In this document: one piece after another, positions 19,519-39,700 of the stretch
Numbering within the stretch: position 1 is the stretch's first letter
Layout of the letters: the number at the start of each line of letters is the position of its first letter
From: Scolanthus callimorphus
Taxonomy: Eukaryota > Cnidaria > Anthozoa > Actiniaria > Edwardsiidae
Assembly (NCBI GenBank): GCA_033964015.1
Contig: CM066923.1
Location: 7,243,978-7,307,977 of the forward strand
DNA length: 64,000 nucleotides
Direction: 5' to 3'
Program-made: the position numbers and the translations under genes
Notes under the pieces: generated by a model
Told to the model about the DNA's origin: nothing
What the model saw: only the letters and a program-made list of their open reading frames with translations
Database searches by the model: none

Positions 19519-19763
19519 ATGCAACGTGTCTTGGGAAGAGATTCCTGAATCCAACCGTCGAGGGATCATCACACATTACACAATCTACCACAAACGCGAA
19601 GACTCAGAAGACATCTGGACACCAACAACGCAACACGAAAGTCGTTCCTTGACCATCACACAACTTCATATTTTTACCCAATATTTGATAATTGTGTCGG
19701 CAAGCACTGTTGCAGGAGAAGGCCCAAATTCAACTTTTCAAGTGTGTCACACAGAACAAGACG
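19519..19763 (+). CDS. Channel exon 1 (truncated): FN3 domain
   Basis: Reads NVSWEEIPESNRRG through STVAGEGPNSTF and ends at donor GTACGT. It is about 80% like exon 3 but lacks the first 52-53 bases and the splice acceptor, which are replaced by array sequence. As assembled this exon cannot be spliced in. Confidence 0.85.
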
Positions 19764-22700
19764 GTACGTATTATGATAAATAAAAAAGTTCTTCAATTAG
19801 ACTTAGGTAGGACGCTGAAAGTTACTATAATCCACACCCACGCTTGCCTCGGTAATCAAATGTAGACTAGAAATAAAGTGTACTAAACTTAAATGTTCCA
19901 TCGGATGTAGCCTTTCAGTACAATTCAAACTGAGACGATGTGAACTTGCATATGTTAAAAAGGAAGGAGCGAATGGATCTGCAGTTCGAAAGCGCTATCC
20001 TTTCTTTCAGAAACTGAAAGCTAATTGATCTATATATTTTCTCCAACGGTTTTCATGTAGGGCTGCACGAGATTTTTTTGACGTCGATATCTTAAATCGT
20101 GCGAGGTCAGGAGATTTGAGAATATCCTTTTATTCAGCTCCAGGACTTCCTCCGCAAAACGTTACCTTAACACTGGCGAAGCCCAAGACGCTAACGTTCC
20201 AATGGTCACGGGTGCCATCCGAGCAACTCAACGGCATTTTATCACAGTATGAGGCAGAATTAGCTCAGGTTTGGAGTACGGCTGAGCCCAATACCGTGGA
20301 AATTAGTCGTGAAGAGCATTCCAAAACTTTCGAAGGTCTCCTTGAATACAGAAACTACAGTTTTAGCGTGCGGGCGAGAACCATCAAACCTGGACCCTGG
20401 AGTTTGCCAGTATTCGCAAAAACTGGTGAAGCAGGTATGGACACTTGGCTATTAAACAACCGTAACACTAACTATTGTATTGTAAAAGTTGTTCCTCTTT
20501 CAGTCTTTACAGACGTAGGTAGGTTACGAGGCATTTATTTCGCATAATCCAAATTTGACAAAACAATTTGTCGACATTGTTTTAGTGATTCGACGTTTAT
20601 ATACAATGGTATAGTGATTTGGAAGGAATTGCGCTTGACATGGAGTTTTCCTGTTATTCAGTACTCCAGGTGGTAAACTTTGAAATTTAATTTCTCCGCT
20701 TTTCGTGCGAATTTCAAGTTATTCCTTATATGTAGTTCGTCCAAAGCAAATCAAAATCAAGTCAAGGGATTCTAAAGTTTTGAGTAGTTTTGGCCACTTT
20801 TTGACAAAATTGCTCGAAATCCTGGTAAAATCTGTCTTAATTCAGGAAGTATATCATCTAACATAGACGTAAATGAAGAAAAAGGTATTCTTGAGAATGA
20901 GAAATAGCGGATTTCAGATCTGTGTCGGAAGTATATCAGATTTCCTTTTGAGTGTTGTCCAATACACTGACAAATTTATGCAAGGCATTGTCTAAAACAA
21001 TGGAGTGCAATGGAGTGTATTATAGAACGAGGCAATACAATGGGGGAGAACAATACCATGCATAAATTTGTCAGAGTATTGGACTAGTATGAACAATTCA
21101 ATCGTTAGTGTTTACTTGGGTCGCGACTAAACGTAAGGAGTAATTACTTCGCCTCCTGGTTGTTTTGTTGCTGAATGGGTTTCGTGTCTGATTGGTTGGT
21201 TGTTGAATGGGTTTCGTTTCTGATTGGTTGGTTGTTGTATGGGTTTCGTTTCTGATTGGATGAGTCTATTTACTTTGCGTTTACTTTTCGACGCTCATCT
21301 GAAATCCGCTCTAAAAATGAGCATGAATCAAGATGTAAATGAAGGCTGAGGCTGTCGATGATAAGAATGATGATGAATATAAGCTTGATGATGATGATGA
21401 TGATGATAGTGATGTTGGTAACAGTAGCTTCTTCCGTAATATATTGTACATTCACCCTGTTGGGCAACTCTCAGAAGGTTTAAGGCAAGGCATTCGCTAG
21501 GATGGTCACAAAACTTAGGGGGTGGTCTATATTCGATACGTTTGAAGATATCATTACGGTAAATATTTCAGCTTGTAGGGAATATCAAAATTAGCATGTT
21601 TATTTTAATGTTTCTATGACAACGTCAAATATGACCTTTGAACTCACAGTTTAAACATTTTCACAAACTGCCACTGTAGACAAGGAAAATGCATAGCTAG
21701 GAACATTTCTCTATTGCGAATAAAGGGACTTACCTAAGGGTTCATTAAGCTAATTGGAATTCGTGCACAGCATTTATAATTACAAAGTTATTAAAATGAT
21801 ATCAAATTTCACTTGTCCTAAAATAGGGTTCCTATTGAGAAAGTCAACATATCCAATTAGATCAATGATGCCTGCCACAACCTGAATCACTTCACGTTTC
21901 AAAATTCTCAGCAATTTTAGCCTTTCCTTGTCCACAAAGGCAGTTTTTAAAAACCGTTGAAATGCAGAGTTCAAAGGTCACATTATATGTTGCCATAGAA
22001 ACGTTACCGAAAATATATCAATTTTGTGAACCTCTACAACTTGAAGTCTGTCCTGCAATGATATTGTTAAGACTTTGGAATATAGACCACCCCCTAAGTT
22101 TTTTCGACCAATTTTTGCGACAACCTTGCCTTAAACATTCTGAGCTGAACTGCTTGCAACATTATTTCTCTCCTTCCAGCGCCAAACGGACCGCCAGTAG
22201 GCGTCACTGCCTCTCCTGCGAGTAGCACATCATGCAACGTGTCTTGGGAAGAGATTCCTGAATCAAACCGTCGAGGGATCATCACACATTACACAATCTA
22301 CCACAGGCTTGAAGACTCAGAAGACGACTGGACGCCAACAACGCAAAACATAGGTCGTAACTTGGTCCTCACAGAACTTAGTATTTATACCCGATATTTG
22401 ATAAATGTGTCGGCAAGCACCGTTGCAGGAGAAGGCCCAAAATCAAAATTTCAAGTCTGTCGCACAGACCAAGATGGTACGTATTATAATATTAAAACAA
22501 ATAAAAATAAATTTCTTCAATTAGACTGACATGTATCAAAGCCCCAACTTCGAGATGCGAATCCTTTAATTGAGAAAACTTTCCTTGGAAATGAAGTGTA
22601 CTGAAAAGTACTATCGCATTCCAGACCACCGTAGCCGGAGGGAGAGGCTCCCTTATTATTTTGTCATTTCGATAGGAATACTGTATCGATTTTATACAGC

Positions 22701-25700
22701 TAATGGTAAATATACCCTCCCCTGGCAATGATTTCCATGTTGCTACTGCGTCAAATTGCAGTTTGTTTCACCGTGATCTTAATATGTAGGCCGTGCACCC
22801 ACTGTCATAGTTTTTCAGGGAACTAGTTATTTGCCATACAAACGACAAAAACCTGAAAGAAAAAACTGTTTACTCAGCTCCAGGACTTTCCCCGCAAAAG
22901 GTTACTCTAGCACTGGCAACGCACAACACGTTGACGTTCCAATGGTCACGGGTACCCTCCGAGCAACTCAACGGCATTTTGTCACAGTATGAGGCAAATC
23001 TAGTTCTGGTTGGGGTCGAGGAGGATGGGATCACCGAAATTATTAGTCATGAGGATCAGTCAAAAAAGTTTGAAGGACTGGTTGAAGACAGGAACTACAG
23101 TTTCAGTGTGCGGGCGAGAACCATCGCGTATGGTCCATGGAGTCTGCCAGTATTCGCACAAACTGGTCAAGCAGGTATGGAAACTTGACTTACAAAAGCA
23201 GTAGCTGTTAGAGCGGTTTTCACATGACTGTCGTGAAAGCAATAGACCGAATTCTTCAGCTTTTCGTGACGAAATATAAAACCCATATACTATGAGCAAA
23301 CTTCTAACACTTTCCTGCAATCGGTGTAATTTTCCATGCTCTATGCCAAAGTGAAATTTTGGCTTTTCCGACGTAGCAACAGTAACTAGGGAGTAGAACA
23401 ATAAAGCGGGATCGGTCAATTCATGAGTAATTCACTATCCAATCAAATGCGATAATAATTCCACAACAAGCCAATCGAGAGCGGGGAGATTCACAACCTC
23501 TCCTTTTCGCGAGCGAAGAATAAGTGAAGTAGTCACAAGTTATTGTGTAATTGGTTTCTCTACGCGATTTGATTGGCTGAAGGATCAAATATCATGCTCT
23601 CGACCAATCACAACCCCAAGCAATCGCACTGAGTTACCGAGTAATTTGTAATTACTCACGACAGTCATGTGAAAACTGCTCTATTAGTAAAACATGTTAC
23701 TCATTCCGCATTTACAAACTGTGTAGGTAAGTAACCGCGGCTTTATGAAAAAATACGAGCATTTTCGTTGCGCATAATCCAAATTCGCACAAACAGTTTA
23801 AGGAATTATAAAATGACTTGAAATAGTGTTGAAAACACTAACAGCGGTGTGAATCCAAAATGAATGGCAATGTCCCAATAAAATCGAAGACAAATCTTGG
23901 TCTGTTTTGTCCTTCCTCTCTATTTGTAGCTATTTGTCAATTTATTAATTATAAAATGTAACGTTAGAAGCACTTGAAGGAATAGTTATTCTAGCGCAAA
24001 ATTCTTGTTTGGCGGCATTTTGTCTTCGCCAGTCAGAAACAAAACCTGCTTGCTGGATGATCACTAGCCCTGCCGACTTCTAAAACTTTAGCAAATTAGA
24101 AAGCGAGTACTCAAAAAGAGAGTAAATAGGTTTCTAAATTTTGGAGTAGTATTTGATTGAGCTATTAAACCGTCTTTTTCTTTTCTTTTGAATCTCTCTT
24201 CAATAGCGCCAGGCGTCTCCCCGTCCAATGTGACTGCCAAAACACCAGCATCTCCAGCATTCGAGTAGAGTGGTCAGCACTCTCCCCGGACGCCGTGTCC
24301 GGAACTCTTCAAGGCTACCAACTGAGTTACATAAACACGAACGTGTCTGGATCACCAGAGGTGAACGTAACTGTTGATCACACCGTGCTTTCGTATGATA
24401 TAACTGGTCTCCTGTTATACACTCTCTACTGTTTCAAAGTGAGGGCCCTCACTGTTGACTATGGACCTTGGAGCGACCCTGTGTGTTCTTTCACCACCCT
24501 TAAATATCTACCGCGTAAGTTAATCAAAGAAACATATTACGTTTTGTACGTTGATATTATATCAGATATTTGTTACGTAGCTAGTCCAAACTATATCCTC
24601 GGTACCAGAGTCTCCAAGCTCTACTCCCACCTGTCATTAGAATATTTTGACTGAGCTCAGCGTAAAGTTTCGAGACTGTGATGTCTTGGCTGAGCGCGTG
24701 TTATAAAATGAGTAATGCTTCGAGACCGCGGCGTCTTTACTGAGTTGTCACCAAGTGAGTAAAGCTTAGAGACTCTGGTACCCAAGGTACCTAGACGTGT
24801 CAGTGCTCCTGTGCTATTGTCGGCTTGCTGGCTGAATGAGCTGCCACTACTGTCGATTTGTAGCTGCAGTAACAAGCACGAGCATTGTTCTAATATCGAA
24901 CGAAAACAATTTGGTAAATCAAATCTTGATCTTTGTTTTTAGATGTTGATTTAGGGATTTCTACACGTAATTTGTCTAATACCGAATGAAAACAATAACA
25001 AAGGAGTGGCTGACACGGGCTCTTTACATATGACCTTTTCAGTTCCCACATCGCTCTTTTTCTTCACAGCACCTGAAGTCATCCCAGTAGAGCTTGGTTT
25101 ATCCAACGTCTCATCGACTATGACAATTCTAACCTGGGTCTCACTACCAACCAGCCACAAAGACCCGGACGCTAACATCACTGGATACCGCATTTATTAC
25201 AAAATCAAGGGTACTGATAAGGAACAAAACATCAGTGTTGATGGCCAATCTGCGGATCGATTTGAACTTACTGGCTTGAGGAAGTTCAGAGTGTATGAAG
25301 TTCGTATAGTAGCGGTGAATCCGTTTGGAGAAGGCAACAGTACGCAGACACTTACATTCAAGACTGCAGAAGATGGTAAATTGAACATGAAAGGTTTCTT
25401 TCATATATCAAGCAATCCCTGTACGAAAATTGTCGTTTTTCAACACCTTACGGCCAAAACCATATTTGAAATCATTTACCTTATAAGGAAGTGACATAAG
25501 ACCATCTTTTGATTAGAATTCCGGCAAATGTAGCAAGAAAACGGTGAAATTTTGAATGAAAACTTGCAGGAATTACAGTTACAGAGACTCGAGTTCCCGA
25601 TCTGTCCACCATTGATTTTGGCTTGGTAACCACGCCTGAATAGCCTACAGCTAGCCCGCGCGCGACTCTACCCAGTCCTCCCAACTGCACTCAGCAAAAA

Positions 25701-28700
25701 CGACTAGAGCTCCCCGGTTCATCACCTCGCGGGAAGGCTCTGGTGACAGCCACCTGATGCATGGTATACAAATTGATCTATTTAGGCCTCAAAATTACTT
25801 GTAGAGCGAAGATATATTGTTGTTTTATTTAGCCAGTTGTATTCGCTGCACTCACTCGTGAGATACATTTTCAACACTCGAAGATAAAATTCGTATCTCC
25901 TCGCGGCCATTTAACATCCTGCATATTTTATTATTATTTCAGATTGTCTCATCAGAATGACGTGAGTCTGCACATGAGTAGGCTTAGTTGCTCGGCAACT
26001 TTTGACAAAAAAGGCAACTTTTCTTTAGCATCGAGCAACACTAGCTCGGGACTTCTTCGTGTTCCTCAAAAACCTTCGAACTAGCTCTGATTTCGATCGG
26101 TCTAAAACCAAAATACGGCAAATTTTAGAATAAATTTAGGTAACTTTTGGGCAACTTTACGAGAAAAACAGCAACGTTTTTGAGCAATGTTTAAGGAATA
26201 TTGTGGCGATTTGTGGCTAGGCCTAAACAGAAGAAATAACAGGTCTGATTTCTACACACGAAATAGGCTGCTAGCAGGCGTTGGTTGACTAATTTTAGGT
26301 CATTTTATGGCAATAATCGAGCGAGAACCCCGTTGCGGGTGCCATCTTGGACGGATCAAAATCGCCCCAGTCACTCGTCCCAGACCGAATTTTGACCCGT
26401 CCAAGATGGCAACCGCATCGGGATTCTCGCTCAATTCTCGCCATAAAACGACCTAAAATCAGCTAATCAGCCAATCAACGCCTGCTAGCAGGCTACAAAC
26501 GATCTGAGATTAAGCCATTATCTCTTCTTTTAGTACCATCAGCCCCACCGCAAAACGTGACAGCAGCAGCTACAACTTCAACTACGGCCACCCTTGATTG
26601 GAACTCAATCCCTCCGGACCAGCTGAATGGGATAATTCGCGAAATACTTATCAAAATCTGGGAAGTCTTGCTCGGAGAAGGCTCCGCTCTATATATCAGA
26701 GTGAACATCATAAAAGCGCGGAGAAGGAAAAGGGCGGTGGAATATGATCCAGACACGAAACAGCTTACCGGTTTGAAGAAGAACACTCAGTATGCTGTAC
26801 AAGTAGCTGGGGTTACTATTGGAGATGGCGTGTTAAGTCCAGTTATATATATCAACACAACTGAGGACCGTGAGTATGCCTAGGACAACAGACAAGTTCG
26901 CGCTCTAGTGAAACCTCGTCACCTACACAGGAAATTTCTGCAGAAACCCATCCATGGGAAAAGCTGAATTTCCCAAGGCGCACGCATGGGAAGTGTTCGG
27001 AATTCACATGGATAGCCATGGGAAATACGAACACTTCCCATTCTACCATGGGATATTCAGCTTTTCCCATGCATAGGTTCCTGCAGAAGTTCCCTGTACT
27101 AGTAAAGAACTCCTAAATAATGTAACAATTAACAAATGTCCTCTGATTTTCCGTGGTATGTCCTCTTATATACCACAGAATGACGTAATAAAGTGGTCAA
27201 AATGTTGTAAACTCACGTGATTCCGTGGTATATAAGAGGACATACCACGGAAAATCAGAGGACATTTGTTTTATGCCACAACAAAAAGGCAAAAATACAA
27301 AACAAAAACAGCGCGCGCGCGCAGCCAAACGGTGTTTTCGTTGGTTCTTTTTAGCGCGCGCGCCGATGATGGCGCGTATAGTATATACTTTTATGTACCC
27401 ACGGCTGAGAGCCAATCAGAATTCTAGAAATGCGCGCATTGTTGTATAAAACACAGCCCACATCAAACACTCACGTGTACCTTTTCACAGGTCCCGATGC
27501 ACCCCCTACCAATATTCATGCCGTCAATACAAGCGCCACCAGTCTGCAAGTCACGTGGTCCAATGTTCCCGAATCACAGCGAAATGGTGTTGTGAGGACA
27601 TTCGTCCTCAAGTACTGGGAAACAGGGCACGTTGGTTACCATAGCAACATGACGCTTCCTGTTGACAATCTAACTGTGACGTCAGAGGGGTTGTATATCG
27701 TAAATATTACTGGCTTGAGGATATGGACTTTATACACCTTACAGGTAGGCTATTGGGATGGCAGCTGAGTCAAAATTGCAGTTTAGGAGTCATTGTTATT
27801 TCAACCCGGAACAAAAGAAAAGAGTGCCAATTCAATTACAAATTCATGACGGCTTGTTTTTTTCTTGGATTTCTCTACAGATCCTTGCATATACAGTCGG
27901 TGATGGCCCGTTCAATGCGCCGCTAACTGTTCGTACTGACGAATTTAGTAAGTTGATTCGCTGTTATCTTTTGGTTGTTTGGATGATAAAGGTGTGGCTA
28001 GCCTGCGTAGCTGGCGGTTTTGTGTGTTTTCCGAGACGATTTTATCGGCGAGAGCGATAAAAATATTCGAATGCTAGGGGTGACCGTCGTATTTTTTAGG
28101 GGTTGAAATCGGCGATCTGGTATTTTTTAGGGGTTCGAAAATAAAAAATAACAGTATGGTAAGCTACGCAGGCTAAGGTGTGGCCGCAATGCAAATGTCA
28201 ATAAAGTAACATGCACTTTCAGGCAAAAACAAAGGCGACGTTGTTACTTGTGTCGAAAGTTTTTAGGGAGTTCCGCTACGTTAAATTAATTTTCTAGGGA
28301 GCTCCGCTTGTGAGCGATGCGTAAAGATCAGATTTTAGGGAGCCCCGGTTTTAGACAGTGCCTTATGATTCACACAGAAAAGTGCTTGAAAATGAAAGCT
28401 GTCATTGAAAAATATTTGAATTTCAACATTTCGGTTTCCTTAAAAGTGCTTGAGTTTTGATTGTATTAGGAGTCCTTGAGTGTCCTGTAGATTGGTGCTT
28501 TGTCCACTTCTTCCTTTGAACATTGTGTTATTTTACATTGTGGGTATCTTACATTATACACATTTGAGGAACCTGTAGCAGCCATTGCGCATTTTTTAAA
28601 CTTCGTGGTACTTATTTATACAGCTATTTCAAAAAACGTCGAAAGCCATACGCGCCCAGACCGCAAAGTTGTCTGGGTAGGAGGTCGTCAATCGGCCCGC

Positions 28701-31700
28701 TACTTGAGTATGACGCTTTTGAACTACTCGAGACATTACTAATTTTAAAAAAGCTCTCTTTCGTAGAATTTTGCACTCAGACCAGCGAGGTATCATCAAA
28801 ATAGGATATTTAGTTTCTACCCGTACTGCTTTTCGGTCCGGGCGCGTAGGTTTAGCACTCACAAGACCGACAACCTTTATTGAAATAGCTGCATACTGTC
28901 CTCCAAACGTCCTTGCAAACCCCTGGAGCTTGATCATGAATTTTTTTTTATGAACCATGTGCCTAAAGGTAAGATTCTAGCAGCTCCAATTATTAAACAA
29001 CAGTAAATCAAAGTAAGTGGTGCCTAAAGTAGGTAAACTTAGTATTTTAGGAAGCTCCATTTTTAGGCAGTGCCTAAATTCCATATTCCTTTCAACAGAT
29101 CCTTGTTTCCCGCCTGCAAATGTGAGATTCGATGTCCCAAACCCCTGGGATGTCATAGTGCTCTGGTCACCAGTTCCCGAGCATTGCCGGAATGGTATCA
29201 TTCTAGGTTACAGGGTGTCCCATTTCAAACGCGTTGATAACCAGTCGACCCCTTTGCCCGTAAAAACCATACCCGTGGGTACACACACTACTACTCTCCA
29301 TGACCTGGACTTGGTCAGTCAGTACATTATCGGGGTAGTGGCTTTCAACAGCAAAGGAGAGGGACCCAACTCGACTGATATCATTTACCCTGATGTGACA
29401 GGTTTGTCTACTTAACAAATCAAATGAGGCTCAGCGTTGTCTGGAATTACGTCGTCATTGTCGTCAATGCGGCTTGTGGACTCACGAGCCGCATTTCAAA
29501 CTCGGTTTTGTTGGCTTGCAGCAAAAGCCGTATACACAGTTGAATGCCGTATTACACAGTAGCAAGCCGGTTCATTCTCGTATCCAGAGCTCCCCGGCTC
29601 GTTTTCTCGCAGGGGAGGCTGTGGTGACATCCATTTTAGGACCTTTGCTGATTGGCTGGTTTTGAACGTTGGTACATGCGCAGAAAGATATTTCTCTGCA
29701 CAGCTCTGTATCCAATCTCGTACCCAGAGCCCGTCATCGTTTGGCCAGCGGCAAGATTCAGGGCTCTGGGGAAATCCGATTTGTGAGCATGCGTGGTAGG
29801 TCAAAAACGTAACGAACTTTCATACAACCTTCAAACCGGAAACCCAGAATCTGGGTTTTAAAAAAGTCGTTTCCCCCAGAGCCCTGAATCTTGCCGCGGG
29901 CTCTGGGTACGAGATTGCTCTGTATCAAGTCTCGCGCATGCGTCAGTCCAATCCTATCCAATCACTCAAGATCTTCCGAGAAGCTGTATTCACTCCTGAA
30001 TTAGGTGAAGCATTTGGTTACCATAAATCACCATGCATTCCTTCAGAAACGTATTTGTTCTGTTGTGTTTTTCGTAGTTTTGTCTTGAAGCGTTTCAATG
30101 AACTCCAGTGGCCCCATGTTATCTTTTCCAGGTTTAAGTCTCTCCCCACAAAATGTAACAGTCCAAAGCATCGTCTCCACAACTTCAGTGATCGTGCAAT
30201 GGAAACCCATCCCAAAGGAGGACTTCATGCTTAAACTAGTGGGTTTCCGCATCACGTATTCCAACCTAGAACTCGGCGGTGAAACAGTCTTCAAAACAAC
30301 GCCAAAGTCATTCACTGTCCGTAAGGACAGATTTGAACTGGAGCTTGGGGATTTGGAGAGTTATGGGAAGTATAAAGTTGAGGTGGCAGGGTTTTCTCGC
30401 AGAGGAGATGGACCTTCGAGCTCGAGTATTGGTGGTCAGTATAATACAACAACAAACTACTATAAACAAGCTTCTTTAAGCCGACTCTTTTTTCTTCTTT
30501 TTTCGTACACAATCTGGAGCCTCTGTGCGCATATTATTATTACCATGAAATCGACCTACTGTTGTTCAATCGGTAATTGGCTCCGTTTTTCATGACCACA
30601 AAGGTTCCTGGTTACATTATGCCTTTAGAAAGACCCGGGCAGCCGTGCTCCTTTGTTATTGCTTGCAAAATGGTGACTAACATGGTGCGGAAGGGAATTG
30701 GGGATACACAATTCCTTTCTTCGTTCTTGTAGTATTGTAAAACGCCATAGAGCAGTTAATGTACATGGCGCTATATAAATCTATTTTTATCATATTATTA
30801 TTATCTTCATAATGATAAGAGTCCGCGCTGAGCTTTTAAATGGTATTCATTTTTTCAGAAACCTGCCGCTGCAACAAACATGTTTACACGAACTATCGTA
30901 GTTTCCCGCCCTACGTCGGTGAGAGTCGAGGCTCCGGTATCATCACTCCGATCCTAGACGAGATGATAGTCCAGTGCTGTGAAACGTGTAAATCCCACGG
31001 GGTCTCATACCTCGACTTTGACAATAACGCGATCGGAGAACCAGCGAAGCAAAATAGTGCGATCGCAGTTAAAAATTTGATCGGCAATGAGAGTGACTTG
31101 AGTTTTCCCATATATGGGTCCAAGTGGCAGACAACCTATGATGATGTGTTCCGCTATATACCTCTAATAGGTAAGATCAGATTTCGAGTGACTGTGAAAA
31201 GGTACGGACCACGGCACGGTCACGGCACGGTCACGGCACGGTCACGGCACGGTCACGGCACGGTCACGGCACGGTCACGGCACGGTCACGGTCACGGTCA
31301 CGGTCACGGTCACGGTCACGGTCACGGTCACGGTCACGGTCACGGTCACGGTCACGGTCACGGTCACGGTCACGGTCACGGTCACGGTCACGGTCACGGT
31401 CACGGTCACGGTCACGGTCACGGTCACGGTCACGGTCACGGTCACGGTCACGGTCACGGTCACGGTCACGGTCACGGTCACGGTCACGGTCACGGTCACG
31501 GTCACGGTCACGGTCACGGTCACGGTCACGGTCACGGTCACGTCACGGCACGGTACGCAGCCTTGCATTGTCGCGAACATTCAGAAAACCGAACAGAAAT
31601 TACATAAATGGCTACTTGTCATATGAGCATGTTAGTGCGCTGGTTGGCTCTGCGAAACCTTTTACAAGGACAGTACATTGAAAAACGATAGAAAACCGTG

Positions 31701-34700
31701 TACTATTTTAGGTTCTGCACTGGAAATGTCATTTGCGGGTGTTCTATTTAACAATTAGTCGCCGTAGGCAACGTGCTTATTGGCGAATAGTCACCGAGAC
31801 GAAGTCGATATTCGCCGATAATCACGGAGCCTGAGGCGACTAATTGTTTTAGTAATAATTTCTCAAGTGATTCATAAGGTTTTTAAACAAAAAAAGTCTT
31901 GTTTTGGGGGATTCTTTCACGATCATAACACAACTCGCGCGCAAACTCACAATTCACTTTCAATATTATAGAGAGAAAACAAACCTCTCGACCAACCAGG
32001 GGTCGGATATTCTTATAATCACTTGAGTAATTATAATAAATTGATATGTGGGTAATTTAACTGCGCACCTTGATTGAGGTCTCTACATTTTTGTGTGTGT
32101 AGAGTCGCCGGGTTTTGCTTACATCGTGAAGGAACCCGATAATAACATCGCTGAGAAGGTCTTCTCGTCTGTCCTCTCCACATGGCCCTACATACTGCTG
32201 ACTTTGCTGATCAGTTTAGCGGCTGGTATTATCATATGGTTCCTGGTAGGCTGTTATCTCTTTAAAGCATAGCTATGTGTAGTGGCTAACCCTTTGGAAT
32301 TGGTAGGGCCCCTGTTATCTTTAAAATACATGATCATTTCACTGACGTACTGTAATGTTTCATAGGTGGCCGTGATATTCATATGGTTACTGGTAGGCTG
32401 TTATCTCTTTAAAGCATAGCTATGTGTAATGGCTTACCCTTTGGAATTGGTAGGGCCCCTGTTATCTTTAAAATACATGATCATTTCACTGACGTACTGT
32501 AATGTTTCATAGTTGGCCGTGATATTCCTCAAATCTGTTCAGTTTTCGTCATGAAAACCCAAAACAAAGAAGAATTTAAAATACAAACTTTCCTCTTTTA
32601 ACAAAGAGTAACAATGTGTGTAACTAATGTGATGCACAGCCTTTCAATTGGTCGTTGTTGTCGAGCGCCATTATTTGGTGGTCACTTAAGCAAAAACAGA
32701 TCCCATTATAGACATTATACCAGAAAATACAAGTGACGCGTGGGGTATTCTGCAGTATGCCACTCGAAAGCATTGTAGAACCAGTATTTATTCTAATAAC
32801 ACAGTGTTTATGATCGTTTTGGTAAAAGTATTTGCTTCCATGACACCTCTCCAGTTGTGCAGGTGCAATCTTTTCTGGAATTAGTGTACGTAGACCTGAT
32901 AATGGTGAGCTCCAGAAGGGCTGATCGACTAAAGCATCCTTAGATGTTTATGACGTAGGGTACAGCGCATGCCGGGGTTATATGCTATTCAGGCCGCGAT
33001 GAAAACTAATATATAGATTTAGGCAAAGCCTAAAAGCGGAGCTCCAAAAACGTAACATCACAACCTGGCGGGGTTCAGCAACGCCATAGCGAAATATGTA
33101 CAAGCCATTATTTTAGGATTGATGTAACTATAATAAGTGGAACAGACTTCGCGTTTGTGGCAAGTGAGAAGGCCTGACGTTGATGATTTTGATTCCTCTC
33201 TTCAGGATACATCTTCCAATCCAGAGGAATTCCCGCACTCCTTTGTTGCCGGGTGTTGGAACGGTTTCTGGTGGGCCTTTATCAGTATGACTACTCTAGG
33301 GTAAGTATGATAAAAAGGCAGGCACCATAGATATTAGCAAAGAGATGGAACTTGAAAACCAGATTCGAAGGACTACAGACAAGCAGGCAGGCAGAAGCAA
33401 ACACAGAGACAGTAATAATAAGGGGTCCACAGAGTCATGATAAAGCTCTCGAAGATCTAAACATGTTGTACGCATTCCCTCGGTGCAAAACAATAGAGTC
33501 ATGCTATAGAACGAGAAAACAATAAAATGTTTTGCTCTGCTCAATCAATTACGCAAGGTCTTCGAGGAGCTGTTTCCTTCCTCGGCTAACAGACAGTGAC
33601 AAACAAACCATGCTGCGAAACAAACCAACAAAAGAAGCAGCTACTAGACTGACACTTAGGCAATGAGGCACATAGTCAGGCAATGAGGAGTGAACAGGAA
33701 CCGAACAAGTAAATCGGGCCGTAAATGCATACATGTATATGTAATTATTTCATTTTTTGTTTAATTCTATTTACTTACAGGTGCACAAAACGGATCTGTT
33801 CCGCAAAATATCTGTTCCGCAGCCCTTTCTCTTGCTGGCTGGGAAATGTTGACAAAGAGATCTCCTGGGAAAAATTTTTCTGACAATTATCTGCTGGGAA
33901 ACATTTTTTCAAGTTTTTTTGAAGAAACAATTGTGTGTGGCGATAATTTTCTTCTATTTCCTCATTGCTGGGAAACAATGCTATCTTTCTTCCTTTTTTT
34001 CGTGGTTATTTTCATCAAATGACGATCTACAATCCAGATTTTAATATCCTGGCTGGCAACAACGTTGCTGGCTGGGAAAAAGTTGAGCTGTTGTTCTGCT
34101 GGGAAAAATGTCACTGAAGGTGCCTCCTGGGAAAGAGGAACAGATAAAGTTTTCCCAGTAACTTTTAAAAACTCATTTTTATTAAACAGAAAAACCTGCA
34201 AACCCCAAAATAAGCCATTTAAACACATTTAAGGAGGGGGTGCTCGTTGTGTGCCCTCGTACTTAGAATGCAAAAATGCTTATATGAAGGACAAAACATC
34301 TTTTGTCTGGTAATCAATAACCATGTCTACTCCATAGAAATTAAGAACCTAATTAACAACCTACTTAGCCTAAACTGCCAATAACTACCCCAAAATATAA
34401 GAACCTGTTTTGGCAAACTTTGAAAAATGTAGGTTCTTGGTTCTTACACGCGGGGTTTTACTGTACTGCTAATTGCTTCCCCCCTTTGACATCCTTGACT
34501 TCAGGTATGGAGACCGCGTCCCACGAAGCTACCAGGGCAAGTTTTTCGCGGTTTGGTGGGTTCTTCTTGGCTTGGTAGTGTGGGGAATTCTAAATGGTTC
34601 CATAAGTTCGGCGCTCACTATCATCGTTGTGAAAACCAGCACATCTCTCTATGGGAGCAAGGTAAACTGCCGCACAATCCTGAACACAAACTCTAGTCCT

Positions 34701-37700
34701 TTGGTAATTGGTATTCTCTTGGCCTCACGCTCGGTCTTCCAGACTGATGTTTTTCGCCTGTGAAGAGAATTGCCATGAAGATTTCAAATCCACTGCTTCG
34801 AGAAGGGTTTAGAATGTGTTAAGCATACGACTTTATAGGATTATTAAAAGCTTCAGGAGGCTAGATTCCGCTAAGTAAATAGCACGAAAAAAGCGATATC
34901 GCACGAGTCGCGCAGCGACGAGGGCGATAGCGCCTTTTTGAGTGCTATTCTCACTGGGTCCCAGTGGTGCATATATAAGAGATCAACTCATTAACATAAT
35001 ATCATTCAGTTGCTTTGAGAACGAGAGCCTTAATGGCGTCTATGGAAGATGTCATGTATTAGTGGTGGGTGGTGGGTCTCATTGTGCTTTCCCTGGGACC
35101 TGGTGGTGCCTTTTATATTCTTTCCCGCCCTCCCTCCCTTTACCCGCCATTGCCATCGTCGTCTCCGCCAGGTCTCCTCTCCCCATATCTTATATATAGC
35201 ACAATGTGCCCAGTGAGAATATATAACTATTTTCGGCGGAATCTACCGACTGAACGCTTTGAATAGACTTGAATCCTTTGATATCTCGTCCTCAATTTAC
35301 ACAAAAAAGAGATATCATAGGATTCTATTGCTTATAGTCGGAGAAGTGCTGTGTAAGCTTTTACGGTATTCATTTTCTGGTTATGGTCTGGTATCTTATA
35401 CAATATATATCCACGATGGTTAAAGTTTTTATGTGTCTAACGTTCATCGGTATCATATTTATATCAGTATAATTGGTATGCAGGTTGGCGCCGTACAAGG
35501 TACACCGGAATATCGATTTGCTGTGCGGAAAAATGCGAGAGTTAATGAAGGTATTAATCATCACTGTTAACAATCATACGAAATCTGCTCTATTGACATT
35601 ACATCCTAATAAGTGATAATAACAATAAATAATAAATAATAATAAACTTATTTACCCCACGATAATCTCATCAGGTATATATACATTATCATACGCGCTG
35701 TGTGATTGTATAGACGTAAACGTGCGCTGATGTCTAGTCTTATTATCGCCAGGCTTTACTAAAAGTGGAATCTCGACTTTACAGCTAAAGTAGCTGCAAA
35801 AACATCGATTTGTTTTTGGCTTTATGGCTGTTCTGCCAGTCAAATATTATGAGCCAATCAGATTCTTGTCCTGTTTCGTCTAGTGCAGTCGCCTGGCTTT
35901 CCGTCGCGACGTTGTCTGGTTTTAGTTCAGAGGGAAGCCAGTTGATTGCACTAGGCGAAACACTGCAAGCCAGTTTCAGTGGCTCAGAAAGTTTGATAGG
36001 CGAAACAGCAAAGTCAAAATCAAAACATAATTTGATGTTTTTGAAAACATGGGTCGTGATGTAACGGTTTTAGCTGTAAAAAAGGGTCTGTGAACACGCC
36101 TCTGGATACTCTCTGAGATCAGGGGATTTCTCCTGCTTTATTAGAGCTGCACAAACCGACCGTTTCAGAAACTTTGTAACTTCAAAGTACTGCTTGGAAT
36201 TTATTGTAACTTGTCTTCCGTCCTGGCGTGTGTATTTATTATAATATTTTCGATGTAAGTATTAATGTTTGACCTATTCCTGTAATTCAGTCCTAACTGC
36301 AAGAGGAATAATAAACAATTATTATTATTATTAAATAACGCAATTATGATTTTGCTCCTTCCAGCGAACAATTACTCTAATTTTGACGAAGTGTTGACCG
36401 CCGTAGCGTCTGGCCAAATCTCAGGTATGATAATCGACGCTTACGAAGCTGGCACTCGAAAGCAAAGGTTAAAGTCTCTTGGTCCAAGCCTAGAGGTACA
36501 ACAGGTGTACGACTTCAAGTCTACATATGGCGTCGTACTATCGAGGAACTCGACAAAGCTTTACACTTGCGCGAGGGGATATATGCAGCAGAATAGGGCG
36601 AAGATGTTTGCACGCGTGAGAAATCTGACAGACTTTATTGAGGTGAGCTGATTAGTTTTTATCGTTTTTATCCCTTCCGACTGTGATTGAGGGCCCCTCC
36701 CTAGGTTCCAATTCGGGATAACTTTTTGGGACAAAATCGTGAGATCTGGTACATTTAGAGCTTTCAAAGCGCGCTACACTGGCCCAAGGCTAATTCACCG
36801 AAAAACGTAACCGAAAGGCAAATTATTCTCTTTGTCTAGAAAATCACAACATTTCAGATGTGTATTATTTTGAATTATAATTATTTATAGAAGAAAGCTG
36901 TGGGCGTTAAAAGTTGCGACAGAATTGTACCATAAAAATAAAAATGTCTAACATTAGGCAAATAGGATGATTTGGTTTTAGTTTGTGTTTTTCAGTGAAC
37001 AAGCCATGGGGCCAAAACAGGACATTTATATATGACAATTTCCCTCAGGCTATCCCACCTCTGACACCATTACCATGACAGTATTACGCAGCCAGTTTGA
37101 CTGTTTGATATTCAATTTTTATAGCATACAAAGCATTTTATAGTAAGGTATTCAAATAAGACGAAAAAAGATGCAACAAAGTTAAAATGGCCACGTAATT
37201 CTTCTGACCAGATCTGGATCAGAATACATCATCAGTATGGAATGTTTGGCTTGAGCGCGCAGACGCCTCTTTGCGAGAGTCTCTTTCGACGAGCGCTAAG
37301 TGGCGTCGGCTTTCGGAGGCTAGCAGGATTATGAAAACTGCCGTAAATGACGTTCCAACAAAATTCTTTGGAATTTATTTTCAGAATCAGCGTCCAACGT
37401 CCATCCAGGATGCTGTCATCAAACAGTCTACTGGTTTGTTCGACGCGAGATCTCCCTTGTTCATGGGCGTTGTGTTCTATTGCCTCATTGTTTTGGGTGT
37501 CTTTACATTTTTTGGCGTCACCTGGGAGCTGGTGCGTTGCTATGGAGATAGGGGTCCACAACATAGAGGTTAGAAAGCGATTATAATGCGTTGCATGTCA
37601 CGTGGTTGTTGTTTGGCTACAAAGTGATTGCCCTAGTATTCCAGATGCTTGCGACCTAGGTAGTTACTAACATATTACATCTAACATCGATGCATCGCGA

Positions 37701-39700
37701 CCCGCGTTTTCAAAACATCGATTTGTTTTTGGCTTTGCTGTTTCGCCAATCAAAAAAGTGTAAATGTAAAATGTAAATTCATGTTTATAGTGGTAGTGCG
37801 CTTAGCTACACCCAGCCATTTCACAGAAACTCCATTCAAATTGAAACCAGATATCTAATGAAATCTTTTGGGCCAATCAGATTCTTGCCCTGTTTCGCCT
37901 AGCAGTCGCGACGTTGACTGCACTAAGGCAAGAGTATCATTGGCTCAGATACTTTGATTGGCGGAACAGTTACAGCAGTTTCAGGTAGCACGCGAATTCG
38001 CCGTTGTCAGATTCTTGGAGTTTGGCAGTTGGGGTTTTCTGTGTTTTCCATCAATGCAATCCGTGTGAGCCAATCACATCCTTGCCCAGTGCATTTGTTT
38101 GGCTTCCCTTGCGAGACATGATGACCTGATTGGCTCACGTGGTTTGATTGACTTCGCAGAAAAACCCAACTGCCTAAAATGTTTTGAACGCGCTGGGTTG
38201 CGTGTTACCTGAAACAGCTGTAAGTCAAAAATCAAAACATTATTTAAAGCTTTTGGAAACGTGGGTCGTGATGCAACGGTTTTAGTGTAAAAGCACAATT
38301 AAGGCTTTCTCTAACATTTCCCTCACCAAATGTTCCTTCATTGTTTGTTTTTACCGGCAATAGATGTTCGAAAGAAGCGTCAATGCCCCAATTGATCACT
38401 CCTTAAGAGTGATTTTCTATACTTATTGCCTCGTTCTTAAAAAAATATGGAGCACAGAAAGTTCGTTTGATGTTTCATTAAACATAACCGTGATACTCTT
38501 GTCGTCCGATCACCGACGGGAACGTGCATATCATTATGGGCATCATTATATTCCACAGCAAGTTTGTTATTCAATTTTCCTCGTTCTTTAATAGACTCTT
38601 AAATAGATGTTAGAAAGAAACGGTAATGATCGCCATGCATAAGTGCCCATAATGATATGCGCGTTTCCGTCAGACATTACGCGTTTTCCGTAGGAGTCTG
38701 ATGGTCCATCGGACGATCGGCCTAGCTCCCCATATCGCCATGTATACGGTGGGATACAGCCGATTGCGTTTGAGCGTTTTACCCTAAAGGGCCGTTCACA
38801 CGGCGCGATTTCAGCTGCGATTTGAGGTGCGATTATTGCAGCGATCGTCCACGGCATATCGCGGTGGTGTGAACGGGCGGCGATTTGGCCCTGCGATATT
38901 TGCCAGTTCGTTGGCGATCTGAAGAAATCGCACACGCATCGCAGTGAAATTTGAACATGTTCAAAACGCCTGCGACGTCGCGGCGACATCGCCGTTGAAA
39001 TCGCACTGAAATCGCCGGCCGTTCACACCGCGCGATTTTACATCGCCGTTAGATCGCCACAGAAATCGCACCTCAGATCGCCGCTGAAATCGCGCCGTGT
39101 GAACGGCCCTTAACAGTTCGCACGTTATGTTTGAACGTTTGAAAGTTGCGTTTCTAGGATGAAACGAGACGTTTCTATGGCGAAATAAAGAGTTCTGTCC
39201 TCTCTGATTGGTGATTGGTCAGTGAAAAATACACATGGCGGTTGCCCTTGGAAACGTCCGACTTTTTGTCTCACAACGCAACTTTCAAACGTTCAAACGT
39301 AACTTGCGAACTGTTAGGGTAAAACGCTCAAACGCAATCGGCTGTATGTGGTATCCTTTCGTAGTACGTGGTTCACATTCCCTATCTATTTGCATCTATC
39401 CGATGAAACACCATCAGACTGTTTTTACTGGCGCAACTAAGGCTTTCTCAAGCATTTCCCTCACCAAATGTTCCTTCATTCTTTGTTTTTACAGCAAAAA
39501 TGGCAGCTCAGAAGGAAAGAAAAGAAATGGTAAAAGACCTGCGTCTCTTTTTGCTTGAGTTTTACCAGGATTTCCGCAAAATAAACAAAGAACTTTCTAA
39601 AAGACACAAAATAGAAAGGCAAGTGATGCTGGAGTACAGACGTCAAGAAAAGAAGGAAAAGATTTCTGACATGGCCCTGGATTACGCACGGTTTAATTAA
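19519..39700 (+). CDS. FN3-repeat, K+-filter ionotropic-glutamate-receptor-like channel gene (5' end missing), 18 exons
   Basis: The exons from 19519 to 39700 join in phase into about 1,480 residues once one homopolymer base in exon 5 is allowed for. The N-terminal thousand residues are ten fibronectin type III domains with several N-x-S/T sites, so they are presumably extracellular. Then comes the order S1 (exon 11), M1 (exon 12), P-loop (13-14), M3 (14), S2 (15-16), M4 (17) and a charged cytosolic tail (18), which is the topology of ionotropic glutamate receptors. The pore reads MTTLGYGDRVP, the canonical potassium filter, also known from cyanobacterial GluR0 and a rotifer GluR. I infer a K+-selective channel with an adhesion-type ectodomain; ligand and gating are unknown. 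The 5' exons and promoter are absent because the tandem array cuts into the first visible FN3 exon. Confidence 0.85.
19764..20137 (+). other. Intron between channel exons 1 and 2
   Basis: 374 bases with nothing recognisable apart from the splice sites. It corresponds to the 401-base intron 22477-22877 of the duplicated exon pair. Confidence 0.7.
20138..20434 (+). CDS. Channel exon 2: FN3 domain
   Basis: A phase 1-1 exon of 297 bases between acceptor TTATTCAG and donor GTATGG. It shows the FN3 B-strand Trp (LTFQWSRVPSEQLNG) and the tyrosine corner (YRNYSFSVRART). It is a near copy of exon 4. Confidence 0.88.
20955..21087. mobile_element. Foldback element (about 133 bp)
   Basis: The arms GTCCAATACACTGACAAATT and its near reverse complement near 21065-21084 bracket a short centre. 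Intronic. Confidence 0.65.
21174..21270 (+). repeat. 32-bp minisatellite, about 3 copies
   Basis: GAATGGGTTTCGT followed by CTGATTGGTTGGTTGTT repeats at 32-base spacing from about 21174. Confidence 0.8.
21471..22143. mobile_element. MITE-like element with inverted termini
   Basis: The left end TCAGAAGGTTTAAGGCAAGG is matched inverted at 22124-22143. An inner pair, CTTAGGGGGTGGTCTATATT near 21511, is inverted near 22080-22101. It sits about 36 bases upstream of exon 3. No coding sequence is seen. Confidence 0.75.
22180..22476 (+). CDS. Channel exon 3: FN3 domain
   Basis: A phase 1-1 exon of 297 bases between acceptor CCTTCCAG and donor GTACGT. It reads PNGPPVGVTASPASS, then NVSWEEIPESNRRG, ending VCRTDQDG. 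It is the intact paralogue of truncated exon 1. Confidence 0.92.
22878..23174 (+). CDS. Channel exon 4: FN3 domain
   Basis: A phase 1-1 exon of 297 bases after acceptor TTTACTCAG. It reads LTFQWSRVPSEQLNG and RNYSFSVRARTIAYGPWS. Exons 3-4 duplicate exons 1-2 as a pair. Confidence 0.92.
23210..23682. mobile_element. MITE-like element flanked by TA
   Basis: The left end GAGCGGTTTTCACATGACTG and the right end are inverted repeats of about 27 bp with one or two mismatches, and TA lies at both outer edges. The interior of about 420 bases is non-coding. The rest of the intron (23683-24206) shows nothing. Confidence 0.75.
24207..24514 (+). CDS. Channel exon 5: FN3 domain with a one-base frameshift
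   Basis: The acceptor is CAATAG and the donor GTAAGT. The first 35 bases read PGVSPSNVTAK in one frame; the rest reads NTSISSIRVEWSALSPD onward in another. One extra A in the AAAA run near 24239 restores a 309-base phase 1-1 exon with a normal FN3 pattern (VDHTVLSYDITGLLLYTLY). Confidence 0.85.
24600..24782. mobile_element. Foldback element (about 183 bp)
   Basis: GGTACCAGAGTCTC and AAGCTCTACTC on the left are inverted at 24749-24782. It lies in the intron between exons 5 and 6. Confidence 0.65.
25070..25375 (+). CDS. Channel exon 6: FN3 domain
   Basis: A phase 1-1 exon of 306 bases. It reads PVELGLSNVSSTMTILTWVS and ends NPFGEGNSTQTLTFKTAEDG, with several N-glycosylation sequons (NVS, NIT, NIS, NST). 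The acceptor is TTCACAG and the donor GTAAAT. Confidence 0.92.
26264..26495. mobile_element. MITE with long inverted arms
   Basis: The left arm TAGGCTGCTAGCAGGCGTTG, then TTTTAGGTCATTTTATGGC, is inverted with few mismatches at 26440-26495. A second inner pair includes GCCATCTTGGACGG. It ends 38 bases before exon 7 starts. Confidence 0.8.
26534..26869 (+). CDS. Channel exon 7: FN3 domain with a polybasic insert
   Basis: A phase 1-1 exon of 336 bases, about 35 longer than its neighbours. The extra length is a mid-domain insertion containing IKARRRKRAVEYD, a match to the furin consensus R-x-K/R-R. The frame starts at PSAPPQNVTAAATTS; the donor is GTGAGT. Confidence 0.9.
26926..27097. mobile_element. 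Foldback element (about 170 bp)
   Basis: The arms contain TTCTGCAGAAACCCATCC and CATGGGAAAAGCTGAAT, inverted around 27054-27097. Confidence 0.7.
27131..27272. mobile_element. Foldback element (about 142 bp)
   Basis: AACAAATGTCCTCTGATTTT and CCGTGGTATGTCCTCTTATA are repeated inverted and almost perfectly at 27226-27272. A CG-alternating tract follows at 27311-27362. Confidence 0.8.
27491..27744 (+). CDS. Channel exon 8: FN3 domain, first part
   Basis: Starts in phase 1 (PDAPPTNIHAVNTSAT), contains LQVTWSNVPESQRNG, and ends in phase 0 at WTLYTLQ before donor GTAGGC. This is the only FN3 domain here split by an intron, just before its F strand. Confidence 0.9.
27881..27947 (+). CDS. Channel exon 9: end of the split FN3 domain
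   Basis: A 67-base exon reading ILAYTVGDGPFNAP then LTVRTDEF, with acceptor CTCTACAG and donor GTAAGT. The phase runs 0 to 1, completing the domain begun in exon 8. Confidence 0.85.
27999..28175. mobile_element. MITE with TIR TAGCCTGCGTAGCT and a 9-bp target duplication
   Basis: The termini TAGCCTGCGTAGCT and AAGCTACGCAGGCTA are inverted. The flanks AGGTGTGGC at 27990-27998 and 28176-28184 are a perfect 9-bp duplication, as made by Mutator-like transposases. The rest of the intron (28185-29098) holds three copies of a GGGAGYYCCG phrase and nothing else clear. Confidence 0.88.
29099..29401 (+). CDS. Channel exon 10a: FN3 domain
   Basis: A phase 1-1 exon of 303 bases. It reads PCFPPANVRFDVPNPWD, VIVLWSPVPEHCRNG and FNSKGEGPNSTDI. 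The acceptor is TTCAACAG and the donor GTTTGT. Confidence 0.9.
29610..29950. mobile_element. Dispersed repeat with a nested foldback element at 29714-29916
   Basis: The outer sequence (CTGATTGGCTG, TTTTGAACGTTGG, ATGCGCAGAAAG and, further on, CTCGCGCATGCGTC) matches 52450-52760. The inserted foldback has ends AATCTCGTACCCAGAGCCC and its inverse, and is flanked by GCTCTGTATC on both sides. Confidence 0.75.
30132..30434 (+). CDS. Channel exon 10b: last FN3 domain
   Basis: A phase 1-1 exon of 303 bases. It reads LSLSPQNVTVQSIVS, VIVQWKPIPKEDF and GFSRRGDGPSSSS. It is immediately followed by the S1-like exon, so the FN3 stack joins directly to the channel module. Confidence 0.9.
30859..31170 (+). 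CDS. Channel exon 11: short cysteine-rich S1-like segment
   Basis: 312 bases, phase 1 to 1. It starts ETCRCNKHVY, has FPPYVGESRGSG resembling the start of an S1 ligand-binding lobe, then DEMIVQCCETCKSHG and DLSFPIYGSKW. At 104 residues it is at the short end for an S1 lobe. I cannot see the usual T-x-x-R ligand-contact motif. A hexanucleotide repeat starts about 35 bases after the donor GTAAGA. Confidence 0.8.
31207..31550 (+). repeat. GGTCAC hexanucleotide satellite
   Basis: Starts with about six 11-base units GGCACGGTCAC, then about 40 perfect GGTCAC hexamers. It lies wholly in the intron after exon 11. The repeat has no stop codons in several frames, so a false (Gly-His)n reading runs out of exon 11 through it. 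Confidence 0.97.
31745..32045. mobile_element. Two adjacent or nested palindromes
   Basis: ACAATTAGTCGCC near 31752 is inverted at 31836-31848, and TTTCTCAAGTGATT near 31859 is inverted near 32018-32032. The arms are short and diverged, so the boundaries are approximate. It ends about 60 bases before exon 12. Confidence 0.5.
32103..32245 (+). CDS. Channel exon 12: end of S1 and M1 helix
   Basis: 143 bases reading ESPGFAYIVKEPDNN and then the membrane span WPYILLTLLISLAAGIIIW, ending in phase 0 at donor GTAGGC. ESPG-A-I is typical of the end of S1 before M1 in this superfamily. Confidence 0.85.
32230..32530 (+). repeat. 147-bp tandem duplication that includes the 3' end of exon 12
   Basis: TGGTAGGCTGTTATCTCTTT occurs at 32244 and 32391, and the similarity continues to GGCCGTGATATTC in each copy. 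The second copy carries the last bases of exon 12 and the donor GTAGGC. The remainder to 33205 shows nothing I can name. Confidence 0.9.
33206..33300 (+). CDS. Channel exon 13: pore helix and first half of the K+ filter
   Basis: 95 bases reading EFPHSFVAGCWNGFWWAFIS then MTTL and the first two bases of Gly, phase 2, donor GTAAGT. The aromatic WNGFWWAF pore helix and TTL agree with K+-channel P-loops. Confidence 0.93.
33301..34504 (+). other. Intron that interrupts the selectivity-filter codon
   Basis: About 1.2 kb. Between 33835 and 34135 the phrase CTGGGAAA recurs about seven times at irregular spacing, which may be a decayed repeat. No coding exon was found. Confidence 0.6.
34505..34661 (+). 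CDS. Channel exon 14: filter GYGD and M3 helix
   Basis: 157 bases. The joined Gly codon gives GYGDRVPRSYQGK, then the span FFAVWWVLLGLVVWGILNGS and SALTIIVV, ending LYGSK in phase 0. The acceptor is ACTTCAG and the donor GTAAAC. TTLGYGD is the potassium selectivity signature. Confidence 0.93.
34945..35225. mobile_element. Foldback element
   Basis: ATTCTCACTGGG and GCATATATAAG near 34947-34979 are matched inverted by TATATATAGCAC and CCCAGTGAGAAT near 35191-35219. Confidence 0.55.
35484..35550 (+). CDS. Channel exon 15: 22-codon start of S2
   Basis: A small exon found by hand, between acceptor GGTATGCAG and donor GTATTA. It reads VGAVQGTPEYRFAVRKNARV then NE and leaves one base, which pairs with CG at the start of exon 16 to give Ala. 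Phase 0 to 1 matches both neighbours. Confidence 0.8.
35778..36081. mobile_element. MITE-like element, copy A
   Basis: The ends TTTACAGCTAAA and TTTAGCTGTAAA are inverted. Inner phrases AAACATCGATTTG, GTTTTTGGCTTT and GGGTCGTGAT are shared with the larger element at 37674-38290. It lies in the intron between exons 15 and 16. Confidence 0.7.
36365..36642 (+). CDS. Channel exon 16: S2 ligand-binding-like lobe
   Basis: 278 bases reading NNYSNFDEVLTAVASGQISG, then MIIDAYEAGTRKQ and STYGVVLSRNSTKL, ending LTDFIE at donor GTGAGC. The G-x-I-x-G-x-x-I-D pattern with YGVVL is that of the periplasmic-binding-like S2 lobe; the Asp of IIDAY falls where iGluRs place their acidic ligand contact. Confidence 0.9.
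37080..37327. mobile_element. Partial copy of the 46-kb foldback element
   Basis: GCAGCCAGTTTGACTGTTTG, then ATGGAATGTTTGGCTTGAGC and CAGACGCCTCTTTG, match one arm of 46042-46463. It ends GGCTTTCGGAGGCTAGCAGG, 58 bases before exon 17. Confidence 0.75.
37385..37568 (+). CDS. Channel exon 17: M4 helix
   Basis: 184 bases, phase 0 to 1. It reads NQRPTSIQDAVIKQSTG, then FMGVVFYCLIVLGVFTFFGV and TWELVRCYGDRG. One hydrophobic span preceded by the end of S2 fits M4. The donor is GTTAGA. Confidence 0.9.
37674..38290. mobile_element. MITE-like element, copy B (about 617 bp)
   Basis: The left end has GATGCATCGCGACCCGCG and TTTTCAAAACATCG; the right end carries GGGTCGTGATGCAACGG inverted to it. Several GCCAATCA/TGATTGGC pairs lie inside. 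Confidence 0.72.
38510..38672. mobile_element. Foldback element
   Basis: GTGCATATCATTATGGGCA near 38524 is inverted as TGCCCATAATGATATGCGC at 38644-38662. Confidence 0.65.
38754..39347. mobile_element. Outer foldback element (70-bp arms) split by an inner MITE
   Basis: The left arm starts ATACAGCCGATTGCGTTTGA and ends ACCCTAA at 38787; it resumes after the insertion with CAGTTCGCACG and GTTTGAACG. The full arm appears inverted and uninterrupted at 39278-39347. Confidence 0.88.
38788..39110. mobile_element. Inner MITE with TIR AGGGCCGTTCACACGG and TAA target duplication
   Basis: A 323-bp element with inverted ends AGGGCCGTTCACACGGCGCG, flanked on both sides by TAA. A 3-bp TWA duplication is typical of PIF/Harbinger insertion. 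The interior is made of GCGATTT-rich subrepeats. Confidence 0.88.
39495..39700 (+). CDS. Channel exon 18: charged cytoplasmic tail and stop
   Basis: Starts AKMAAQKERKEMVKDL, continues EFYQDFRKINKELSKR and RRQEKKEKISD, and ends DYARFN before TAA at 39698-39700. It is strongly charged and helical, probably a coiled coil. The acceptor TTTTTACAG and the phase fit exon 17. The 67-residue tail has no motif I recognise. Confidence 0.82.

Follow-up and report, generated by a model that had tools for sequence, protein, structure and literature searches.

In a 64,000-nucleotide window of the genome of the edwardsiid anthozoan Scolanthus callimorphus (GenBank assembly GCA_033964015.1, contig CM066923.1, positions 7,243,978 to 7,307,977 of the forward strand), we found what is likely the 3' portion of a large gene encoding a membrane channel that has the fold of ionotropic glutamate receptors (iGluRs) and a K+ filter. 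It belongs to a family in which a core of the bacterial GluR0 type, followed by a further membrane helix (M4) and a helical C-terminus, is fused to ectodomains rich in FN3 domains. The gene structure, the family, the filter and the fold were established by sequence analysis and a structure model. All coordinates below are those of the window, and bases upstream of it are numbered 0, -1, -2 and so on, where 0 precedes window base 1. The gene was read as 19 exons on the plus strand, from 19520 to the stop codon TAA at 39698-39700; FN3 units 1 to 4 and 6 to 9 were delimited by Pfam fn3 matches and splice reading, and the basis of the other assignments is given in brackets where it applies.

19520..19763, plus strand: FN3 unit 1, truncated at the 5' end, no acceptor
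20138..20434, plus strand: FN3 unit 2, a phase 1-1 exon
22180..22476, plus strand: FN3 unit 3
22878..23174, plus strand: FN3 unit 4
24207..24514, plus strand: FN3 unit 5, frameshifted, 308 nt (its upstream copy is open and has 309 nt)
25070..25375, plus strand: FN3 unit 6
26534..26869, plus strand: FN3 unit 7
27491..27744, plus strand: FN3 unit 8, first exon
27881..27947, plus strand: FN3 unit 8, second exon
29099..29401, plus strand: FN3 unit 9
30132..30434, plus strand: FN3 unit 10, spliced in phase to 30859 (splice reading, homologue alignment)
30859..31170, plus strand: S1 exon, with conserved cysteines (TCRC, CETC) followed by the beginning of the ligand-binding-domain fold (fold from the model of relative P0012)
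32103..32245, plus strand: end of S1 and M1 helix (splice reading, alignment, hydrophobicity)
33206..33300, plus strand: P-loop exon, ending in TTLG (splice reading, Pfam, alignment)
34505..34661, plus strand: exon beginning with YGD, end of the K+ filter and M3 helix (splice reading, Pfam, alignment)
35484..35550, plus strand: S2, first exon (profile comparison)
36365..36642, plus strand: S2, second exon; carries the conserved Asp, which is residue 288 when the family alignment is numbered along the window row (profile comparison)
37385..37568, plus strand: M4 helix exon (hydrophobic segment)
39495..39700, plus strand: C-terminal exon, helical in the P0012 model, and stop TAA (model of P0012)

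Ten FN3 units thus lie between 19520 and 30434 on 11 exons (unit 8, or FN8, occupies two), and the eight exons between 30859 and 39700, all of them open, encode S1, M1, the P-loop, M3, S2 (two exons), M4 and the C-terminal helix. From unit 2 onward the intron boundaries are AG/GT throughout, and the phases fit once unit 5 is omitted, including the junction 30434|30859. The in-phase splicing of FN3 exons into channel exons, which had been proposed from the letters of the window (the original prediction), was therefore found for 17 of the 19 exons, units 1 and 5 being the exceptions. The selectivity filter TTLGYGD was also seen in the pore as predicted, split by an intron between G and Y (TTLG|YGD at 33300|34505). 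The spliced protein, built without units 1 and 5, comprises 1300 residues, i.e., eight FN3 domains followed by a channel part of 480 residues. Pfam recognized fn3 in eight stretches of it (E 6.9e-77), in unit 1 taken alone (E 4.6e-8) and in unit 5 read in a second frame (E 3.3e-10), while the channel part matched Ion_trans_2 (E 5.9e-11). The match of the window protein to Lig_chan (PF00060) was sub-threshold (16.4 bits against a gathering cut-off of 30.8); in the aligned family, 11 of 12 members matched it at E <= 0.1 (best 1e-7), and P0009 reached 33.9 bits, above the cut-off. ANF_receptor was matched neither in the spliced protein of the window (Pfam, E <= 1) nor in 11 relatives (Pfam, E <= 0.001), the upstream part of the gene having been spot-tested at eight open reading frames (ORFs), which agrees with the earlier proposal that FN3 domains stand in place of the amino-terminal domain. 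M4 is a hydrophobic segment at about residues 1189-1207 of the spliced protein and corresponds to helix 439-475 in the model of P0012.

Homologues were then sought with the channel part among proteins of comparable full length, the best 7999 candidates by shared words being scored. This search returned 11 proteins, all with FN3 and Ion_trans_2, from sources named as Oculina, Nematostella, Porites, Acropora, Dendronephthya and Montipora. Two further searches enlarged the family to 27 members, i.e., 26 database proteins and the window protein (one follow-up homologue search scored the best 7998 candidates by shared words; the channels P0017, P0018 and P0045, which have no S1/S2 match, were set aside). 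Of the 26 database proteins, 24 have an FN3 entry, and GYGD is present in all 27 members. All named sources are Anthozoa (corals, anemones and an octocoral); the lineages of Dendronephthya, Oculina and Nematostella were looked up, and the remaining ones are anthozoan as well. Beside FN3, other members carry TSP1, EGF, F5/8C, SEA, LamG or C-type lectin domains, so that the family, as far as its sequences tell, joins the channel to long ectodomains in which FN3 stands beside other recognition domains. The window protein aligned with the 11 relatives without gaps across the FN3|S1, S1|M1 and M1|P junctions and that of the filter; small gaps occur near the later junctions, the largest being a 4-residue insertion in the window protein directly after the S2|M4 junction. 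By these alignments the FN3 stack and the channel are one protein. Family members currently go by database names like 'sidekick' and 'uncharacterized protein', and in the open-access PMC literature we found neither a characterised close homologue nor a paper on an iGluR with FN3 domains and a K+ filter, which in itself is no proof of novelty. The main texts of two iGluR phylogenies do not contain the words fibronectin or GYG (PMC6307864) and fibronectin or GYGD (PMC12226733).

That the body has the glutamate-receptor fold was indicated by profile comparisons and by the structure model of P0012, a relative with 41% identity, and the predicted iGluR-like body with a K+ filter was upheld by the S2 profile match together with this model. 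GluR0 ligand-binding cores ranked first among its structural matches, tied with periplasmic binding proteins; S1 and S2 form one flytrap in the model, and M4 and the C-terminus are helical. When S2 without the pore was compared with bacterial S2, the score was 52.2 (maximum 18.7 in 30 shuffles), and a second comparison gave 43.3 (maximum 17.8 in 100 shuffles). The crossed controls were 10.6 and 10.2 in the first comparison and 8.6 and 27.9 in the second, the last value arising between family S2 and bacterial S1 over 20 columns, perhaps from a helix motif common to both lobes. For S1 the profile comparisons were marginal (17.4 against 16.3 in shuffles, and 18.8 against 19.7); the second alignment, which pairs PPYV with PPYA, has the register expected for the first strand, unlike the first, and a global alignment was out of register with a score of 3.3. 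The S1-like exon proposed earlier is therefore clearly supported by the flytrap of the model, but marginal at best from sequence. Profile searches from the family matched receptors with SBP and Lig_chan domains, among them P0014-P0016, which are taken as bacterial-type by domain content alone, and P0032-P0044, three of which bear cyanobacterial names; P0032 and P0014 in turn match the GluR0 cores 2pyy and 1ii5 as well as animal or plant iGluRs in the PDB.

The core of the family is much closer to bacterial receptors of the GluR0 type than to the 11 conventional iGluR loci of the same genome that were compared. The profile of the 27 members scored 113-133 bits against 13 SBP/Lig_chan receptors with GYGD, 81-88 bits against three bacterial-type receptors without GYGD, and 91-152 bits against 80 bacterial ORFs, 69 of which align up to the Asp of S2. 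These 80 (L050-L129) were kept from at least 442 confirmed stretches among at least 593 that matched the GYGD pattern, which indicates that GluR0-type receptors with a K+ filter are widespread in bacteria (record titles include Bacteroidetes, Chlorobi, Myxococcota and Proteobacteria); since the loci were found by that pattern, their filter is no evidence. Because receptors without GYGD also reach 81-88 bits, the filter alone does not suffice to explain the bacterial likeness. When ORFs from the 11 conventional iGluR loci, which were hand-picked from 76 exon matches, were scored with the family profile, the best reached 15.7 bits and the others did not exceed 4.5; most of these ORFs are exon-sized, which lowers the possible score, but the longest one (L039, 648 aa) still gave only 3.9. 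A profile of 12 family rows scored 84 bits against P0014 and at most 55 bits against solved structures, where the best 60 of 396 matches were K+ channels. One result runs counter to this: the bacterial profile scored 113.8 with L039, an NMDA-like ORF of the same genome, across the whole ligand-binding domain (LBD), compared with 53-104 for the family and 14.5-36.0 for the highest-scoring ORF of each of the ten remaining iGluR loci. Bacterial receptors are thus related to both groups, and it is the core profile of the family that is specifically bacterial-like. In a FastTree phylogeny of 123 core sequences (27 from the family, 80 bacterial, 13 cyanobacterial-type and three without GYGD) the family grouped as a single clade with a support of 1.0; its branch is long (1.55), and this does not distinguish horizontal transfer from old descent. 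Animal iGluRs were left out of the tree, since no core that the family profile could align was found in them.

Among known systems, the combination of a K+ filter with glutamate binding was restricted to bacteria as then known, according to passages of PMC2950845, and parts of PMC12332018 describe two K+-filter glutamate receptors, the prokaryotic GluR0, which has two transmembrane domains, and the rotifer AvGluR1. GluR0 (Synechocystis Slr1257; Nostoc 2pyy) and other prokaryotic iGluRs with a K+ filter (Group 1 of PMC2950845), as portrayed in those passages, have the K+ filter within the same S1-M1-P-M3-S2 order as here, and GluR0 cores are the first-ranked, though tied, structural match to the P0012 model; the family differs in adding M4, FN3 domains and the C-terminal helix. 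AvGluR1 (Adineta vaga) has, in the account of the same parts of PMC12332018, a eukaryotic iGluR architecture, and the comparison made here concerns its LBD fold. Animal iGluRs (AKDF, NMDA, epsilon), as presented in portions of PMC6307864 and PMC12226733, share topology, LBD fold and M4 with the family. They differ from it in that the family has a K+ filter and FN3 domains replacing the ANF-type domain, on top of the low core similarity given above. A SYTANLAAF-like motif in M3 is a feature of animal iGluRs; the family lacks it, while L039 shows a STYTANLAAF stretch. Voltage-gated and two-pore K+ channels (KCNQ, KvAP, K2P) have the pore helix and the TT(L/V)GYGD filter in common with the family, but among the matches listed the similarity is limited to M1-pore-M3, and the family has no voltage sensor and a pore flanked by S1 and S2; a simple voltage-gated K+ channel was accordingly rejected. 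Sidekick-type adhesion proteins share the tandem FN3 stack, and two relatives (P0002 and P0022) are listed under that name, which leaves their channel part uncovered.

The locus proved to be one of many rather than an isolated case. A search of the same genome with the channel protein gave at least 89 exon matches, and a hand count of the S1 matches gave 33 places including the window; two of these, on contig C38, resemble alternative versions of loci on C4, and the same may hold for one on C95. About 30 loci, some of them recent duplicates, is a fair figure. A search for conventional iGluRs yielded the 76 exon matches mentioned above, and the window locus was not among them. Twenty paralogue loci were fetched, several of them near-identical, and three were incomplete; in the 17 where both exons were seen, the P exon ends in TT(V/L)G and the next exon starts with YGD (16 loci) or FGD (one locus). 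Since the intron splits the motif, a pattern search for the unbroken filter is blind to the window gene; the sole unbroken TTLGYGD-coding match of one filter pattern in the genome was L001 (C6:7786695-7786715). S1 and M1 fall inside one tblastn match in 17 of the 20 fetched loci, and the S1/M1 intron may therefore be new in the window copy. This intron contains a (CACGGT)n minisatellite (31210-31554), and a direct repeat of 147 bp (32232-32527) spans the last part of the M1 exon together with the donor, so that a second copy of the M1 end and donor is left in the intron. In the paralogue L029 (C4), at about 1512-3590, eight M1-like matches follow one another at intervals that are multiples of 168 bp, which looks like a minisatellite with an exon inside it.

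The gene probably contains more than ten FN3 domains and starts outside the window, because FN3 exons continue upstream for about 30 kb. In the 50 kb on the 5' side of the window we found 15 FN3 exons, from about -29840 to -148, all open and in AG/GT context; their splice sites were sought in phase 1, so that the phase was imposed but the AG/GT context was not. Eight further upstream ORFs picked by eye gave matches to F5/8C (E 7.9e-6), LamG (E 5.8e-5) and FN3 (E 0.0071), all below the Pfam cut-off, and five of the eight had no Pfam match; the F5/8C-like and LamG-like exons lie beyond the FN3 exons and miss the cut-off only narrowly. Not all of these upstream exons need belong to the window gene. 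The earlier count of ten FN3 domains is thus correct for the units at 19520-30434 but not for the gene, and a complete protein with ten FN3 domains was rejected; nor are all ten units intact, unit 1 being truncated and unit 5 frameshifted, although the other eight lie in the Pfam match. Two further features of the window bear on this region:

19519..27015, plus strand: repeated segment, equal to upstream -7500..-2 except for 4 homopolymer indels
1..19522, no strand assigned: 5.92-kb tandem array of about 3.3 copies, beginning at -3; a dispersed repeat, non-coding for this gene

The two copies of the 7.5-kb repeat show no mismatch and four single-base differences, each in a homopolymer; the frameshift of unit 5 (4 A versus 5 A in the upstream copy) is one of the four. 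This duplication may be real and very recent, or it may have arisen in the assembly. The array (GC content 0.33, GC skew about +0.3) truncates the first FN3 exon, which abuts it at 19520 without a splice acceptor. Its three full copies differ by indels only, with no substitutions, and Pfam recognized no family in three tested ORFs; since fragments of the 5.92-kb repeat and a tandem array on C3 (mostly 4.26 kb apart) occur elsewhere in the genome, it is a genuine genomic element. Read without the array and the 7.5-kb repeat, the gene would encode about 18-19 FN3 domains. A second, more diverged duplication of 3.3 kb (-25617..-22316 versus -10248..-6946, 98.9% identical) also contains FN3 exons, and the ectodomain appears to grow through tandem duplication.

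These data allow several alternative explanations to be weighed. The window was read as genomic DNA alone, so two neighbouring genes, one for an FN3 adhesion protein and one for a channel, could in principle have been wrongly merged in the gene model; this is scarcely credible, since the join is in phase and database proteins predicted for other species run through it, and the merged model was rejected on that ground. It is improbable, though less so, that the truncated exon at 19520 and the frameshifted exon at 24207 mark a non-functional copy: the segment that contains them has an intact counterpart upstream, from which it differs by homopolymer indels alone, all eight channel exons are open, and a symmetric phase-1 exon could be skipped. 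An ordinary animal iGluR that re-evolved a K+ filter by convergence and swapped its amino-terminal domain for FN3 domains is also unlikely, if not to the same degree, because the family profile gives at most 15.7 bits with the 11 iGluR loci of its own genome yet 81-88 bits with three bacterial-type receptors that lack GYGD. A possible reading, which we put forward tentatively and without leaning to it, is that Anthozoa possess a second lineage of the glutamate-receptor fold beside animal iGluRs, with a GluR0-type K+ core, either deep-ancestral or derived from bacteria, represented here by about 30 genes and joined to ectodomains of FN3, TSP1, LamG/pentraxin, EGF, F5/8C, SEA and C-type lectin domains. 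If true, such proteins could act as inhibitory K+ receptors gated by contact or by a cue, e.g., in the recognition of self, neighbour, prey or symbiont.

In the stretch of S1 from the FP to the PG motif, any one alignment column has Arg in at most 7 of the 27 members, and the column nearest to the usual arginine site, as judged by eye, has Q in nine and R in six. The arginine that usually anchors the alpha-carboxylate is thus not conserved in the family, in contrast to GluR0, and for that reason amino acids are probably not bound in the way glutamate is bound by ordinary receptors; some ligand may nevertheless bind. At the acidic position of S2, 26 members have Asp and one has Glu, the equivalence of this position to the amine-binding residue resting on the profile alignment. 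In the mechanism we propose, four subunits would form the predicted K+ pore, which the P-loop would enter from the cytoplasm, as the iGluR topology suggests; an S1/S2 Venus flytrap above the membrane would close on a ligand, or be pulled by the FN3 stack, and the pore would open. The exit of K+ would then hyperpolarise the cell, an inhibitory response to contact or to a chemical cue. The flytrap might instead be a silent scaffold, and the protein a K+ leak that is either constitutive or mechanically gated and under the control of the FN3 stack. The non-conserved S1 arginine and the variable, adhesion-like ectodomains speak for this alternative, to which we give a lesser though appreciable chance; the retention of the S2 Asp and of the flytrap fold suggests that the flytrap still does something. 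An animal family that combines such a pore with large, variable ectodomains for recognition and has lost the amino-acid anchor would bear on the kinship of iGluRs and K+ channels, on inhibitory signalling in simple nervous systems and on contact and chemical sensing in corals.

On the 3' side of the channel gene, at about 55469-61399 of the minus strand, the window also contains type IV collagen-like exons with two C4 domains (PF01413, E 7.6e-36 and 3.8e-27) and collagen repeats.
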